Origin: Sphingobacteriales bacterium | GTDB lineage: Bacteria; Bacteroidota; Bacteroidia; Chitinophagales; Chitinophagaceae | Length of the DNA stretch: 64,000 bases | NCBI GenBank assembly: GCA_016200915.1 | Contig: JACQDV010000002.1 | Coordinates: 124,001-188,000, forward strand | Reading direction: 5' to 3' | Shown here: positions 32,227-51,622 of the stretch, one piece after another | Layout: each line of letters starts with the position of its first letter | Position numbering within the stretch: the stretch's first letter is position 1 | The notes under the pieces: model-generated | Told to the model about the DNA's origin: nothing | The model's input: only the letters and a program-made list of their open reading frames with translations | The model's database searches: none | Made by a program: the position numbers and the translations under genes

Positions 32227-32680
32227 GTTTCAGGTTACCAGTTTCAGGTTTCAGGGTTTGGAAATTCGTTCCAGTTTTCCTCAACCCATTGGACATACTT
32301 ATTTATTTTCTTACTTACCGTATCATAATCATTTTTCAGTCTGATATACAAAGCCTCATCTTTTAATGAGCCAGTTTCAAATAAGAAATCAAGGTGCAGA
32401 ATTGTTTCATCGGTTTCAGCATGACTATAAACAAGATACTTGATAAAATCAGCTTTATATCTTCTGCGTCCATAGCCTTCTACTATCATTGCCGTTACCG
32501 ATTTAGCAGAACGCCTTGCCTGCCCACCTTCTTCAAATAATTCAAACTTAGGCAAAGACATTGTCATTTTATGAATCTCAATGGCAAGCCGTTTTGACTC
32601 CCTGTAAATTTCAAGGTCTCTGTAACTTTTCATACGCTTTAGTTTAACCTGCAACCGGAAACTTGTAACCGGTAACTAAT
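32227..32680 (-). mobile_element. Four-helix-bundle cassette 1 with heptamer inverted repeats
   Basis: The left end reads GTTTCAG, GTTACCA, GTTTCAG, GTTTCAG. The right end, reverse-complemented, reads GTTACCG, GTTACAA, GTTTCCG, GTTGCAG: 23 of 28 positions agree. Between them lies one four-helix-bundle gene. The unit fills the argE-argH junction: the argE stop and the cassette gene stop both lie in the arrays, and argH starts 8 bp beyond. No target duplication is obvious. Mobility is inferred from architecture. Confidence 0.6.
32244..32633 (-). CDS. Four-helix-bundle protein (23S rRNA intervening-sequence protein family)
   Basis: 129 residues from MKSYRDLEIYRESKRLA. The family core is visible: QARRSAKSVTAMIVEGYGRR (about 37-56), then FIKYLVYSHAETDETILHLDF. 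Family members were first seen in intervening sequences of 23S rRNA and are related to the Avd accessory protein of diversity-generating retroelements; a nucleic-acid-binding role is suspected, not shown. The start 7 codons inside the longest frame is chosen because the upstream part is repeat sequence. Last residues (FPNPET) come from the array. Unrelated in function to the arg genes around it. Confidence 0.85.
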   Translation of the reverse strand: MKSYRDLEIYRESKRLAIEIHKMTMSLPKFELFEEGGQARRSAKSVTAMIVEGYGRRRYKADFIKYLVYSHAETDETILHLDFLFETGSLKDEALYIRLKNDYDTVSKKINKYVQWVEENWNEFPNPET

Positions 32681-33749: not shown

Positions 33750-34554
33750 TGACGATACTTGTTCCACTGGTGCCATTGATTAATTCTAACAAATTCTCTG
33801 CCTTACCAATAATTACTTTCTTAACACCGCTATTCAATGCAGCAAAAGCATTATCCAATTTTGGAATCATGCCGGCAAATATTTTACTCCCAACCCCTGA
33901 AGGGGAGTCAGGGTTTTTTAGTTGTTGATAATATTCCCAATTCAATTGTTTAATAAGGGTTGATTCGTCATTTATATCCAGCAACACACCTGCTTTTTCA
34001 AAGGAGTAAATCAATTGCACTTCATAAACCGTGCTCAATACTTTGGCCACTTCCTGCGCCATAGTATCAGCATTGGTATTTAAAATTTGTCCCTTACCAT
34101 CGTGTGTCAAAGGAGCAATGACAGGTATTAAATTATTATCTAACAAAATTTGCCAACTGCCAACTGTCAACTGTGAACTTTCAACATCCCCCACAAAACC
34201 ATAATCAATTTCTTGCACTGGTCTTTTTGTTGCCGGAATCAAATTCGCATCAGCACCGGTAACACCAACAGCATTACAACCATTGGCCTGCAATTGTGCT
34301 ACAATTTTTTTATTTACCAGTCCGCCATACACCATCGTCACTACATCAATCGTTTCTGCATCTGTTATTCTTCTTCCATCCACGTATTTTGATTCCATGC
34401 CTAACTTATCACCAATTTTTGTCGCTACTTTACCTCCACCATGAATCAAAATTTTTCTTCCATTCAGTTGTGCAAATGATTGTAAGAATGAAGAAAGTTT
34501 ATTTTCATCATCAACGATATTCCCTCCAATCTTTATTACAAACAATAACTCCAT
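33742..34554 (-). CDS. argB: N-acylglutamate kinase
   Basis: Amino-acid kinase family; phosphorylates N-acetyl- or N-succinylglutamate. N-terminal VIKIGGNIVDDE and KILIHGGGKVATKIGDKLG bind ATP, DANLIPATKRPV and LNTNADTMAQEVAKVL follow. 270 residues. Two stretches look repeat-derived: SSQLTVGSWQ from a heptamer array, and NPDSPSGVGSKI from a C/G palindrome in the loop before AGMIPKLDNAFAAL. Both keep frame. Overlaps argE by 8 nt; 7 bp downstream of argF'. Confidence 0.92.
   Translation of the reverse strand: MELLFVIKIGGNIVDDENKLSSFLQSFAQLNGRKILIHGGGKVATKIGDKLGMESKYVDGRRITDAETIDVVTMVYGGLVNKKIVAQLQANGCNAVGVTGADANLIPATKRPVQEIDYGFVGDVESSQLTVGSWQILLDNNLIPVIAPLTHDGKGQILNTNADTMAQEVAKVLSTVYEVQLIYSFEKAGVLLDINDESTLIKQLNWEYYQQLKNPDSPSGVGSKIFAGMIPKLDNAFAALNSGVKKVIIGKAENLLELINGTSGTSIVNE
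33886..33914 (-). repeat. Short C-rich/G-rich palindrome inside argB
   Basis: The stretch ACTCCCAACCCCTGAAGGGG and the GAGTCAGGG after it contain the CCCCT-GA-AGGGG stem. It encodes the NPDSPSGVG segment in a surface loop and resembles the intergenic palindrome at 19974-20001. Confidence 0.5.
34152..34186 (-). repeat. Heptamer array inside argB
   Basis: Units GCCAACT, GCCAACT, GTCAACT, GTGAACT, TTCAACA. Same word type as the first half of the lpxB array (GTTGACA, GTTGGCG). Confidence 0.65.
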
Positions 34555-34586
34555 TCAACATTCATCGTTTAGCATTCAAAATTTCA
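34552..34586. repeat. Heptamer array at the argB-argF' junction
   Basis: Units CATTCAA, CATTCAT, CGTTTAG, CATTCAA, AATTTCA; it holds the argF' TGA stop and the argB start region. Confidence 0.6.
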
Positions 34587-35533
34587 CTCAGCACCGCCTG
34601 TGCAGCCCACACCCTGTTAGATGCTTCCTGTGTTACAATGCTGCCGGCACTGTCTAATATCTCATCACTCAGTTCTACATTTCTTCTTACCGGCAAACAG
34701 TGCATCACTTTAGCGTTATTGGTCAGCTTCAATTTTTTTTGTGTCAGCATCCACTCGGGGTCATTACAATAAATCTTTCCGTAATCATTAAAAGTGCTCC
34801 AGTTTTTTACATACAGATAATCAGCATCTTTCAATGCTTCATCCTGGTTATGTGTAATGGTAGCTCCTTTAGTGAATTGTTCAGCCAGTTCATATTCTTC
34901 CGGGTGAGTGATTACAAAATCAGCTTCTCCCCATGCATTAATCCATTGAGAAAAACTATTGGCCACACATTGCGGCAAAGGCTTTACGTGTGGTGCCCAT
35001 GTGAGAACAATTTTAGGTTTATGGTTTGTGGTTTGTGGTTTGTGGTTTTCACATTCGGTGATAGTAATTACATCTGTCAAACTTTGTAATGGATGTAACG
35101 TAGCACTTTCCAAACTCACCACCGGAATACCAGCGTACTTTATAAATTGTTTAATGTACAATTCGCTGTAATCATCTTCCCTGTTTTTTAAAGAAGGAAA
35201 AGTTCTTATTGCCAGTACATCAAAATATTTCCCCATGATTGGTGCTGCATCTTTTACATGCTCCACTGTATTACCGCTCATGATGGCTTCTTCTTCAAAC
35301 TCCAGTGCCCAGCCTTCGCTTCCCACATTGAAGATGATCGCTTCCATTCCCAGGTTCTGTGCAGCAATTTGTGTACTCAGCCTCGTACGCATACTCGGAT
35401 TAAGAAATAAACAACCAATGCGTTTATTTGCACCCAGCGTTTTATCCTTAAACGGATTAGCTTTATACTCCAATGCTTTTTCAACCAAAGCATTGATATT
35501 GCTTACATCATGAACGGAAATAAAATTCTTCAT
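34562..35533 (-). CDS. argF': N-succinylornithine (or N-acetylornithine) carbamoyltransferase
   Basis: Carbamoylates the acylated ornithine, the Bacteroidota variant of the pathway. Carbamoyl-phosphate motif FLNPSMRTRLSTQ (about 43-55), HPLQSLTDVITI and MHCLPVRRNVELSDE near 275-290. In the 80s/90s loop (SGNTVEHVKDAA) residue 90 is Val at the place where, as I recall, the Bacteroides enzyme has Pro and the acetyl-specific Xanthomonas enzyme has Glu, which argues for succinyl-type specificity. Residues NHKPQTTNHKPK after TITECE are encoded by a heptamer array. 323 residues. Confidence 0.9.
   Translation of the reverse strand: MKNFISVHDVSNINALVEKALEYKANPFKDKTLGANKRIGCLFLNPSMRTRLSTQIAAQNLGMEAIIFNVGSEGWALEFEEEAIMSGNTVEHVKDAAPIMGKYFDVLAIRTFPSLKNREDDYSELYIKQFIKYAGIPVVSLESATLHPLQSLTDVITITECENHKPQTTNHKPKIVLTWAPHVKPLPQCVANSFSQWINAWGEADFVITHPEEYELAEQFTKGATITHNQDEALKDADYLYVKNWSTFNDYGKIYCNDPEWMLTQKKLKLTNNAKVMHCLPVRRNVELSDEILDSAGSIVTQEASNRVWAAQAVLSEILNAKR
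35016..35050 (-). repeat. Heptamer array inside argF'
   Basis: Units GGTTTAT, GGTTTGT, GGTTTGT, GGTTTGT, GGTTTTC. In frame; encodes the NHKPQTTNHKPK stretch between two conserved segments. Confidence 0.7.
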
Positions 35534-35536
35534 ATT

Positions 35537-35967
35537 ATGCTAAATGCGGAATGCTTAACGCATAACGCTTTATTTGTCTTTTCTGATTGATTTTATAAGG
35601 TTAATCAATTTTGCTTTTACTTCATTTAAAAGTTCAGTAAATGCCTCGTAACTTTTCTTTGAAATAAAGTTAAGTTCAAAAGTCAGCAACCCACAGTACT
35701 CTGCTTCATGAGCTGAACCTAATGCCATATCAAGAAAGTGAGCAAAATCACTATCCGTTTTCCTGCCACAACCTTCTACAATATTCAATGGCACTGAATA
35801 TGATGCTCTCTTTAATTGTGATGCTAATTCATATTGTTCGGATTTTGGGAACTGAGGCAACAATTCTTTATAAACAAATAAAACCAACTCATGTGATTTC
35901 ACCCAAACCTCATATTTTTTATAATCTCTCATGGCATTAAGCATTAAGCATTCTGCATTGAGCCTTC
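35537..35967 (-). mobile_element. Four-helix-bundle cassette 2 with heptamer inverted repeats
   Basis: Left end ATGCTAA, ATGCGGA, ATGCTTA, ACGCATA, ACGCTTT. The right end, reverse-complemented, reads AGGCTCA, ATGCAGA, ATGCTTA, ATGCTTA, ATGCC: about 26 of 33 positions agree. One four-helix-bundle gene lies between. The argD stop is inside the right array and argF' starts 4 bp past the left array. Same architecture as cassette 1 but with different heptamer words, so an independent event. Confidence 0.6.
35570..35932 (-). CDS. Four-helix-bundle protein (23S rRNA intervening-sequence protein family)
   Basis: 120 residues from MRDYKKYEVWVKSHELV. Family core QLKRASYSVPLNIVEGCGRK (about 40-59), then DFAHFLDMALGSAHEAEY. 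It shares the RR/KR-A-S-V-IVEG-GR pattern and the following DF motif with the other cassette gene but is otherwise distant, so the two are not a recent tandem copy. The first four codons of the longest frame are repeat sequence and were dropped. Its TAA stop lies in the left array. Function in the cell unknown. Confidence 0.85.
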   Translation of the reverse strand: MRDYKKYEVWVKSHELVLFVYKELLPQFPKSEQYELASQLKRASYSVPLNIVEGCGRKTDSDFAHFLDMALGSAHEAEYCGLLTFELNFISKKSYEAFTELLNEVKAKLINLIKSIRKDK

Positions 35968-37104
35968 AGCTAAAATTGCAATCTCTTCTTTAATTGATTC
36001 AATAAATTGTTCTGCATCTCGTTTACGCAACGCTAAGGAAGGTAACAGACGAATCACATTTGGTTTTGCTTCACCAGTAAATATCTTTTGATTAAATAGT
36101 AAATTCTTTTTTAAATCTTTCAACTCTTCCGGAACATCAAAACCAATCATCAATCCTCTTCCTCTTACATTTTTCAGTTGCGGAATCTTTTTTAATTCTT
36201 CTCTTAAATAGAAACCAACGGTAGCAGCATTGCCCAATAATTTTTCTTCTTCAATTACTTCCAGCACTGCTAAAGCAGCAGCACAGGCCAAATGATTACC
36301 ACCAAAGGTTGTTCCTAATTGAAAATGTTTGGGCTTGATATGCGGAGCAATGATGATACCAGCAACAGGAAACCCATTTCCCATTCCTTTTGCCATGGTA
36401 TAAATATCAGCACTTACACCTGCAAAATCATGACTGAAAAACTTGCCGCTTCTTCCATAACCGCACTGAACACTGTCAGCAATATAAATAGCACCATACT
36501 CATCACAGAGTTGACGAATCTTTTGAAGGAATGAATTCTCAGCCACATTAATTCCGCCAACACCTTGGATACCTTCAATAATTACAGAAGAAATTTCTTT
36601 TCCATTTTTCTTAAAGCAATCTTCCAATGCCTGTTCATCATTCAAAGGAAGAAAAATTACATTGTCTGTTTCATTAACCGGTGCGATATAATTTTTATTA
36701 TCTGTTGCTGAAACAGCCAACGATGTTCTTCCATGAAAAGATTTGTTGAAAGCAACAATCTTCTTTCTTCCATTATGAAAGGAAGCCAGTTTCAATGCAT
36801 TCTCATTAGCTTCAGCACCACTGTTACAAAGAAATAACTGGTAATCTTCTTTTCCTGAAACCTTACCAAGTTTCTCTGCCAACTGCTGTTGTAAAGGAAT
36901 GCGAATAGAATTAGAATAAAAAGCAATCTTTTCTAATTGCTCTTCTATCCGTTGCACCCAATGCGGATGAGTATGTCCAATGCTGATTACAGCATGACCA
37001 CCATAGAGGTCTAAATATTGTTCGCCTTTATCATCCCACACATAAGAGCCTTTTGCTTTTACAATAGTGATTTCATTAATCGGATATACGTCGAATAAAT
37101 TCAT
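35944..37104 (-). CDS. argD: N-acylornithine aminotransferase
   Basis: Class III PLP aminotransferase acting on N-acyl-glutamate semialdehyde. Start FDVYPINEITIVKAKGSYVWDD-type, then CNSGAEANENALKLA, SFHGRTSLAVSATDN, ADSVQCGYGRSGKFF and the PLP lysine in TMAKGMGNGFPVAG (about residue 240). 386 residues. Between argC and the four-helix-bundle cassette; its last residues and TAA are in heptamer repeat. Both its flanks carry inverted heptamer arrays. Confidence 0.93.
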   Translation of the reverse strand: MNLFDVYPINEITIVKAKGSYVWDDKGEQYLDLYGGHAVISIGHTHPHWVQRIEEQLEKIAFYSNSIRIPLQQQLAEKLGKVSGKEDYQLFLCNSGAEANENALKLASFHNGRKKIVAFNKSFHGRTSLAVSATDNKNYIAPVNETDNVIFLPLNDEQALEDCFKKNGKEISSVIIEGIQGVGGINVAENSFLQKIRQLCDEYGAIYIADSVQCGYGRSGKFFSHDFAGVSADIYTMAKGMGNGFPVAGIIIAPHIKPKHFQLGTTFGGNHLACAAALAVLEVIEEEKLLGNAATVGFYLREELKKIPQLKNVRGRGLMIGFDVPEELKDLKKNLLFNQKIFTGEAKPNVIRLLPSLALRKRDAEQFIESIKEEIAILAEGSMQNA

Positions 37105-37109
37105 TTTTT

Positions 37110-37186
37110 ACGCTTAATGCTTAAGGCTTAAGGCAAAACGCTTTATTCAGTTTGCTTTATGCGTTTTGCTTTCAGCTTTCAGCGTT
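37110..37186. repeat. Gene-less inverted heptamer element, argD-argC junction
   Basis: Eleven consecutive 7-bp units in one phase, from ACGCTTA, ATGCTTA, AGGCTTA, AGGCAAA, ACGCTTT through ATTCAGT to TTGCTTT, ATGCGTT, TTGCTTT, CAGCTTT, CAGCGTT. The left arm, reverse-complemented, matches the right arm over 27 positions with 5 mismatches, three of them G-U compatible in RNA. Same words as cassette 2. Confidence 0.75.
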
Positions 37187-49700: not shown

Positions 49701-49845
49701 AGTTTATAGTTTATGGTTTATGGTTTGTGGTTTTTATAGCCGGTTCCCAGTTTTCTAATTGCCCATTGCCTATTCACCATTGACAACTCACCATTCACTT
49801 AAAAAAGGTCAGCGGCCAACTATCAACGACCAGCGGTAAACCAAC
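49701..49845. repeat. Compound heptamer array between trpS and gatC
   Basis: Consecutive 7-bp units: AGTTTAT, AGTTTAT, GGTTTAT, GGTTTGT, GGTTTTT; after a one-base slip GGTTCCC, AGTTTTC, TAATTGC, CCATTGC, CTATTCA, CCATTGA, CAACTCA, CCATTCA; then CGGCCAA, CTATCAA, CGACCAG, CGGTAAA. Three word types are strung together, covering almost the whole divergent gap. Confidence 0.65.
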
Positions 49846-50991: not shown

Positions 50992-51552
50992 ATGGCACTA
51001 AAGATTTATACTAAAACAGGCGACAAGGGAACAACGTCCTTAATTGGCGGAACAAAAGTTCCCAAAAGTCATTTACGCATTGAAGCATACGGAACAGTAG
51101 ATGAACTCAATTCTTTTATTGGTCTTTGCCGTGATTTAATTACAGATGAAAAAAGTCGTGCTACTTTATTGGAAACACAGGACAGGTTATTTACTATTGG
51201 TTCTTCCCTCGCCTGTGACCCCATTAAAGAACCAAAAATGCGCATCCCCGATTTAAAAGAAAGCGACATCACCTTACTGGAAAATGAAATTGACCGTATG
51301 AATGAAGCATTACCTGCAATGAAATCATTTATACTTCCCGGAGGCCACCCAACCGTATCTCAATTACACATTACCCGTTGTGTATGCCGCAGAGCAGAAC
51401 GTTGCTGTGTTCGACTTGAATTAGAAAGCTTAGAAGTAGATGCTATTATTCTTAAATACCTCAACCGTCTCAGCGATTATTTATTTGTACTGGCAAGATA
51501 TGCTGCTCATCTTTTAAACACAGAAGAAATTCCGTGGAGACCGAGAGTATAA
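50992..51552 (+). CDS. Cob(I)alamin adenosyltransferase (PduO/MMAB type)
   Basis: 186 residues from MALKIYTKTGDKGTTSLIGG, the conserved ATP-binding start; RIEAYGTVDELNSFIGLCRD and LPGGHPTVSQLHITRCVCRRAER follow, including the Arg-rich active-site helix. Transfers adenosyl from ATP to cob(I)alamin, making coenzyme B12. Longer in-frame start 25 codons earlier lies in promoter sequence and was rejected. No other B12 gene is nearby. Confidence 0.93.
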   Translation: MALKIYTKTGDKGTTSLIGGTKVPKSHLRIEAYGTVDELNSFIGLCRDLITDEKSRATLLETQDRLFTIGSSLACDPIKEPKMRIPDLKESDITLLENEIDRMNEALPAMKSFILPGGHPTVSQLHITRCVCRRAERCCVRLELESLEVDAIILKYLNRLSDYLFVLARYAAHLLNTEEIPWRPRV

Positions 51553-51622
51553 TTTGATAATTTGACAATGTGATAATATGCTAATGCTATCATCACATTA
51601 TAGAATCATCACATTATCAAAT
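51551..51622. repeat. Inverted period-8 array between convergent genes
   Basis: Left units AATTTGAT, AATTTGAC, AATGTGAT, AATATGCT, AATGCTAT; right units CATCACAT, TATAGAAT, CATCACAT, TATCAAAT. The right arm is the reverse complement of the left over most positions, so the RNA folds. It spans both stop regions. Confidence 0.65.

Follow-up and report, generated by a model that had tools for sequence, protein, structure and literature searches.

S23/IVP genes between inward-facing heptamer arrays at operon junctions: a putative REPIN/RAYT-like element in Bacteroidota

A gene of the S23/IVP family (PF05635) lies between argD and argF' in the window, the whole 64,000-nucleotide stretch of Sphingobacteriales DNA analysed here, and is bounded by two inward-facing arrays of degenerate heptamers. 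The same design recurs among relatives of three phyla, where the heptamer motif follows the protein clade. The architecture, the pairing of motif and clade, the polarity of the arrays, the orientation of the cassettes, their gene-less (solo) copies and their presence or absence between congeners are read directly from sequence. On balance we lean towards the view that the protein, as a ring, binds its own heptamers and that the cassette is a selfish element of the REPIN/RAYT kind related to the IVSs of 23S rRNA; both binding and movement are inferred.

The cassette gene between argD and argF' (35570-35944, minus strand) was identified as a four-helix-bundle gene by profiles, AlphaFold2 and Foldseek, and its conserved start is probably the ATG at 35930-35932 (MRDYKK...). 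Its product scored above the cut-offs of PF05635 (112.5 bits against 33.8) and TIGR02436 (106.1 bits against 24), and the profile search found PF05635 as the sole domain and no catalytic domain. The AlphaFold2 model (mean pLDDT 93.9) has the fold of solved PF05635 members (Foldseek TMq 0.85-0.90 to 2gsc and 0.75-0.79 to 2rld), with a weaker match to Avd (TMq 0.72-0.79, but E of 0.04-1). The upstream (5') arm (35936-35970) reads GCTGAAG, GCTCAAT, GCAGAAT, GCTTAAT, GCTTAAT on the minus strand and the downstream (3') arm (35539-35573) reads GCTAAAT, GCGGAAT, GCTTAAC, GCATAAC, GCTTTAT on the plus strand, each being five units near GCNNAAN when read from G and both aiming at the gene. An earlier note on this DNA had described inverted heptamer arrays matching at about 26 of 33 positions around a four-helix-bundle gene; the best ungapped match (35537-35569 against 35933-35965) is exactly 26/33, and shuffled flanks reached at most 21/33 in 2000 trials, a null that is slightly low because it used mononucleotide shuffles with one arm scanned at every fourth offset only. 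The close fit to the neighbouring genes proposed there holds as well: argD (35944-37104, minus strand) reaches into the upstream array with its last codons and its stop (35944-35946), and argF' (34562-35533, minus strand) begins at 35533, 3 nt beyond the downstream arm. The stop of the cassette gene itself (35570-35572) lies within the downstream array. For the cassette RNA, the predicted fold pairs the two arms and encloses the gene (MFE -108.4, z -3.07, 0 of 100 shuffles equal).

A second S23/IVP cassette of the window stands between argE and argH, with a gene recognised by the PF05635 profile (32244-32633, minus strand; ORF listed as 32244-32654), an upstream arm of GGTTACA/GGTTTCA type (32648-32676, minus strand) and a downstream arm (32227-32255, plus strand). 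That the two cassettes would combine distant proteins with different words was borne out, the proteins being 24% identical and the heptamers different. Each cassette does have a word of its own, but the idea of a fixed heptamer had to be given up, the word being a degenerate motif. Solo copies are also found in the window: an inverted hairpin in the argC/argD gap (37107-37186, no strand assigned) has the motif class of the argD/argF' cassette, and plus-strand arrays lie inside argB (34151-34185, closest to the flanks of own-genome cassette L004), inside argF' (35011-35048, closest to those of L006) and at 49701-49733 (also closest to L006). Period 7 stands out in the window, with four arrays at that lag, a single one at lag 8, another at lag 14 and none at lags 4-6, 9-13 and 15. 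The idea that solo arrays insert in frame into proteins was considered and set aside: at the array, protein length is unchanged in argH, differs by at most two residues in argB and varies at a loop in argF'. We also observed that the argF' array codes for this loop, whose length varies among relatives, and that an array of 8-nt period (e.g. 51549-51585) occurs beside the 7-nt arrays.

The own genome (G000) has 11 PF05635 family members, and the family is present in at least 48 of 59 relatives, reaching at least 17 members in one of them. The relatives' loci are the better-scoring part of a longer list, and counts hold among the matches listed. Among these matches, 126 of 141 ORFs were kept for the test of inverted arms (unique gene, flanks of at least 150 nt); arms exceeded the 95th percentile of a cross-paired null in 96 loci and did not rise above the null in 30, and in 62 loci the own downstream flank was the best of all 126. 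The self-match of the arms was 0.63 at lag 7 and 0.62 at lag 14, against 0.23-0.36 at other lags from 3 to 15, with the highest of these at lag 8. The motifs mostly point inward, since G outnumbers C in the upstream arm of 83 of the 96 loci (fewer in 8, equal in 5). A second set, the best 80 of 103 named loci around the window protein (95 of 96 genes kept), was merged with the first, giving 217 genes after removal of 4 identical ones. The preferred unit among 167 scored loci was 7 nt in 146, 8 nt in 15, another lag in 3 and none in 3; arms of 8-nt units occur in some S23 subfamilies, and the choice between the two unit lengths tracks the protein tree, on which it changes 9 times where 500 shuffles never give fewer than 12 changes. 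Conservation is equal on the two arms, G1 being kept in 96% and 95% in cluster 26. The count of G-anchored units in this cluster has its mode at five (34 of 68 upstream and 39 of 68 downstream arms), while a leave-one-out count has modes of four and five (51 and 38 of 114; 41 and 34 of 115). The latter result led us to reject exactly five units per arm, as would fit a pentamer, and to claim only four to five.

Motif classes of the 80 named loci (best 80 of 103; 95 genes) were assigned by eye and then by clustering. Every protein clade has a degenerate motif of its own that begins with G. GCNNAAN is found mostly near the window protein, the GG-type in the Mucilaginibacter/Pedobacter branch and GTNNTAA in a more distant branch. 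Units of the largest cluster have G at position 1 in 95% and A at position 6 in 90% of cases, position 4 being nearly free. In the window clade, G1 and positions 5-6 are nearly constant and positions 3, 4 and 7 differ from unit to unit. Words and proteins were compared between the 96 loci with arms; of the 4560 pairs, the 149 with shared neighbours were excluded. The mean word score rises from 5.3-5.5 at less than 40% protein identity to 8.3 at 50-60% and 11.3 at 60-70%, and similarity of word and protein gives a Mantel r of 0.258 against a maximum of 0.094 in 1000 permutations; with the arms in the wrong polarity, r is 0.070 and inside the permutation range. The protein tree (84 loci) requires 8 changes of the second motif base, where 500 shuffles require at least 33, and the nearest protein (at least 50% identity) from another context family has the same second base in 51 of 74 cases, where 0.32 is expected by chance. 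These context families (single linkage) are coarse, one taking 63 of the 84 loci, and are used in this last count only; the pairwise neighbour filter is the better control. Within the window clade, most of which has one motif in common, own arms outdo foreign ones in the median only (16 against 10), the 95th percentile of the null being 18.5.

Because the word score rises with identity and the second base follows the protein tree, protein clade and motif go together as far as sequence comparison can tell, also between loci with unrelated neighbours. The earlier note held that each protein is paired with its own word, and that a lack of correlation between clade and word would refute this. Run on the genomes of relatives, this check returned the correlation described above, and the pairing is supported well beyond the window, across clades. 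Correlation alone could arise from passive co-travel of the arms with the gene, without binding. The near-constant G1 and positions 5-6, set against the variable positions 3, 4 and 7, favours a functional association, for which there are no binding data. A search for specificity residues by mutual information was discarded: its top two columns fall in the N-terminal tail and the C-terminal helix, with others between, and it is confounded by phylogeny since three clades dominate.

The orientation of cassettes was counted at 150 of the 217 loci (arm score of at least 12, 500-nt flanks): 135 lie in sense between co-directional genes, 3 lie antisense between such genes, and 12 have divergent, convergent or unassigned neighbours. 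With neighbours taken from ORF calls only, the median distance is 0 nt from the previous stop to the upstream arm and 5 nt from the end of the downstream arm to the next possible start. Across 32 relatives, the genes around argF' mostly keep the arg order; a family gene occurs between argC and argD in nine genomes, between argE and argH in the window, G001 and G030, and between argD and argF' in the window only. The genes argE and argH overlap by four bases (ATGA) in G002; in the window and G001 the cassette stands directly 5' of the argH ATG and supplies a new argE stop. The argC/argD cassette of G011 has the clade and motif of the argD/argF' protein of the window. As side observations, the argC/argD gap of L072 and the argD/argF' gap of L078 hold other inverted repeats that by eye are not heptamer arrays, and an 847-nt argC/argD gap in G006 (L083) seemingly contains an extra gene (reads MKATIIGGGNIGMALAEGLLE).

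The comparison was extended to four more junctions, with up to four genomes for each. The L005 site has a cassette in G000, a gene-less hairpin with another word in G002, and neither a family gene nor a lag-7 array in G001 and G009. At the L010 site, family genes are present in G000, G001 and G009, the type of the latter two being by eye unlike that of G000, and no family gene is present in G002. The L011 site carries a family gene in G000 and G002 and a gene-less array pair in G001; in G029 the next ATG follows 3 nt past the stop. In G002 the L007 site is a gap of some 190 nt that contains no family gene. Of the 11 own-genome cassettes, five occupy a place shared with a congener (10 of 13 G001 and 11 of 17 G002 members compared), which argues that movement is not frequent; by eye, the arms of these shared cassettes have drifted while keeping their period. 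Neither transposition nor an excision product was observed, nor, on the basis of a single empty-site comparison, a target-site duplication.

In 463 kb of G000 there are 41 arrays at lag 7, 23 at lag 14, 12 at lag 8 and 0-5 at each of the other lags from 4 to 13. Solo arrays resemble the cassettes of their own genome: own-genome cassette flanks are nearer in 28 of 36 cases in G000 (reverse in 7, one tie) and in 16 of 17 in G029 (reverse in 1), that is, in 44 of 53 over both genomes, with the other genome's flanks nearer in 8 and one tie. An inverted partner lies within 250 nt of 18 of the 53. Solo arrays without a partner favour neither strand (12 sense, 15 antisense), a count that left out 8 of 35 with divergent or convergent neighbours or without G/C bias. 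Crude ORFs, a set covering 91% of the DNA, contain 21 of the 53 solo arrays; since the split is 9 of 36 in G000 and 12 of 17 in G029, clear avoidance of genes is seen only in G000. At free positions, the likeness of adjacent units compared with units of other loci is 0.39 against 0.36, 0.46 against 0.53 and 0.39 against 0.48. Adjacent units are thus not unusually alike, which argues against recent slippage and for selection on the fixed positions; an origin of the arrays by slippage is unsupported by this comparison. A separate observation is that units two apart score 0.47, 0.59 and 0.50 at free positions against 0.39, 0.46 and 0.39 for adjacent ones (GC and GG groups of cluster 26, and cluster 27), hinting at a 14-nt super-period.

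The family also reaches plasmids beyond Bacteroidota. Matches were found in 20 plasmid records, 19 of them cyanobacterial and one from Azospirillum, and none in phage records. Regions from 13 of the 20 records were examined: in 8, from Cyanobacteria and Azospirillum, the arms exceed the 95th percentile of the cross-paired null (14.6), L313 falls just under it (14.5) and four (L311, L314, L316, L318) have no arms. When L313 is taken together with those eight, the self-match reaches 0.77 for lags 7 and 14, against 0.24-0.39 for other lags. The order cas6/S23/cas4 with clear arms occurs in the cyanobacterial plasmids of L312 and L315, and in L313, with its borderline arms, the S23 gene stands between cas10 and a cmr3-family gene. 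The S23 gene of L312 (Pseudanabaena) was seen to have very long flanking arrays of GCTTTTA type, with more than 10 units. One Nostoc plasmid holds three more arrays of its cassette's word TAGGGAG; this cassette breaks the orientation rule by running antisense to both of its co-directional neighbours, and a second S23 gene on the same plasmid has 8-nt arms. Heptamer repeats of Nostoc and other cyanobacteria go by the name STRR.

Published heptamers come from further taxa. In the Coxiella 23S IVS, tandem GACAGAT and GACAGAA stand directly before the S23p start, in two or three sets by strain, and a 28-bp terminal stem is cut by RNase III, according to the available part of the source (PMC4990558); these heptamers fit the G-first pattern. 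GGGAATC arrays of Xanthomonas mostly have four units, with 70 and 75 convergent pairs in two strains, as given in the accessible portion of that paper (PMC4692102). The source species of 2gsc is Xanthomonas campestris, the species with the GGGAATC arrays and 70 convergent pairs. TAACTGA heptamer arrays are reported for Beggiatoaceae in what was available of a further paper (PMC4679880). The term 'S23' occurs 0 times in the main text of PMC4692102, and our literature search met no paper joining heptamer repeats to the PF05635 family; as it left most subscription journals uncovered, this is weak evidence of absence.

The cassettes share features with several known systems. The 23S rRNA IVSs of Coxiella and Leptospira have the protein family and the terminal inverted repeats in common with the window cassette, which meets the IVS feature of stem-forming ends (26/33; predicted RNA stem) but, lying between argD and argF', not that of insertion into a helix of an rRNA gene. 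IVSs reside in rRNA genes, whereas cassettes of the window type occupy junctions of protein operons, with arrays at both ends and many solo copies. REPIN/RAYT systems, so far as the source could be consulted (PMC3116915), comprise a gene with its own repeat, inverted doublets, gene-less copies and a pairing of repeat and protein type. The cassettes are alike in all of these, including dispersed gene-less copies whose repeat is that of the copy with the gene, as seen in 44 of 53 solo arrays. They differ in having a four-helix bundle and heptamer-array ends in place of a Y1 transposase and REP palindromes; the RAYT feature of a Y1 transposase in the autonomous copy is not met, only PF05635 being found in the cassette protein. 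Avd of diversity-generating retroelements has the fold of the cassette protein, and the resemblance of PF05635 to Avd is already in print (PMC10053308, in the part available). The Avd equivalog NF033474 is not met (23.8 bits against a cut-off of 80), nor is the RT partner of a DGR Avd, with 0 matches to PF00078 in G000. Published heptamer repeats are like the cassette arrays in being dispersed with some positions conserved, but were described without the PF05635 family. In its workings the cassette resembles a REPIN/RAYT pair, and it is kin to the 23S IVSs, yet it lacks a defining feature of each.

TRAP, an 11-subunit ring that binds 11 RNA triplets, is alike in joining a ring to tandem short repeats and suggests one unit per subunit; the cassette arms have four to five units, and there are no binding data. 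Both 2gsc and 2rld are five-chain entries in the PDB. With four to five units in an arm, a match of one unit to each subunit is tempting, yet the unit counts are too loose to establish it. The X. campestris S23p is described as a homopentameric toroid, and the family as having solved structures and no known function, in the available part of PMC4990558.

The same data leave some room for an element acting at the RNA level, which we regard as unlikely: the arms would pair in the operon mRNA and be cut by RNase III or bound by the ring, and the cassette would regulate or insulate the operon. Ring binding of RNA has a precedent in TRAP attenuation. Such an element would suit the predicted fold of the window cassette RNA with its paired arms (z -3.07), the nearly constant sense orientation, the RNase III-cut 28-bp stem of the Coxiella IVS (PMC4990558, available part) and the presence of the structural relative Avd in a ribonucleoprotein structure, as far as the accessible part of record 8ub7 goes. 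Mismatches between the arms, however, show no excess of G.U (112) over A.C (123) in 82 + 63 loci, and selection on an RNA stem was demoted on the strength of this wobble test, despite the strong predicted fold; moreover, the 3' arm holds G1 as strictly as the 5' arm, and single solo arrays lie 12 in sense and 15 in antisense. Recognition of DNA is thus favoured by the equal conservation of both arms and the missing wobble signal, while RNA reading is kept alive by the strong predicted stem and the kinship with IVSs. More doubtful is a stable regulator, a non-mobile local DNA- or RNA-binding protein with the arrays as its sites and the solo arrays as its regulon. The pairing of motif and protein and the persistence of several cassettes in place between congeners would be compatible with it, but solo arrays keep no fixed place relative to starts, being spread over crude ORFs (21 of 53), junctions and the two strands, one relative has at least 17 family members, words differ among cassettes of one genome, and orthologous junctions vary between congeners.

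Very little speaks for neutral repeats, in which replication slippage would build the arrays and the gene would merely insert at or between them. Long expanded arrays do exist, as in Pseudanabaena, but neighbouring units show no clear excess of likeness at free positions over units taken from other loci, the motif follows the protein clade across loci with unrelated neighbours, and a cassette's own two arms beat those of clade-mates in the median (16 against 10). We find it just as hard to credit that the cassette is a retro-mobile element served by an RT in trans, as Avd would suggest, or is moved by a RAYT/Y1 transposase in trans. The fold match to Avd (good in TMq but not in E), the sense orientation in transcripts and the occurrence of Y1_Tnp in 44 of 59 relatives, with six copies in G000, can be cited for it. 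Against this, PF00078 has no match in the cassette-rich G000, G001, G002 and G029 and has one in 14 of 59 relatives, and Y1_Tnp has no match in G026, G014 and G038 despite at least 8, 4 and 6 family members; completeness is 81% for G001 and 72% for G014. Judging from these draft genomes, several of which bear cassettes without a match to the one or the other profile, neither an RT nor a RAYT in trans is required.

Under the REPIN/RAYT-like reading that we prefer, the element would consist of an S23/IVP gene with an inward-facing array of four to five heptamers on either side. Its protein, presumably a ring as reported for a relative, might recognise the motif of its own clade at both ends and, once bound, keep, copy or move the unit into junctions of co-directional genes, where transcription of the host operon would take in the inserted cassette. 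Arrays and hairpins that have the motif but lack the gene may be its dispersed non-autonomous derivatives or remnants, as REPINs are to RAYTs, and the 23S rRNA IVSs could represent rRNA-dwelling members of this class of cassettes. A bolder form of this idea, offered only tentatively, is that S23/IVP rings read DNA by a heptamer code, with one pentamer per arm of four to five units, clade-specific residues picking the bases and the two occupied arms marking where a mobile unit ends; this single class of elements would then have left its footprints in the dispersed heptamer repeats of Bacteroidota, Cyanobacteria and Xanthomonas, with the 23S IVS as its rRNA branch.

Accounts of dispersed heptamer repeats in bacteria have named no partner protein, at least in the accessible part of PMC4692102, and pairing S23p proteins with such repeats gives both a directly testable role. 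A 2023 survey has 23S rRNA IVP among the abbreviations of a CRISPR-linked figure, in the portion of it available (PMC10910872); S23/IVP genes found in operons, those of cas included, may be hitch-hiking cassettes and not parts of the pathway. Together, protein and repeat may form a new modular sequence-recognition system with a readable protein-to-word code.
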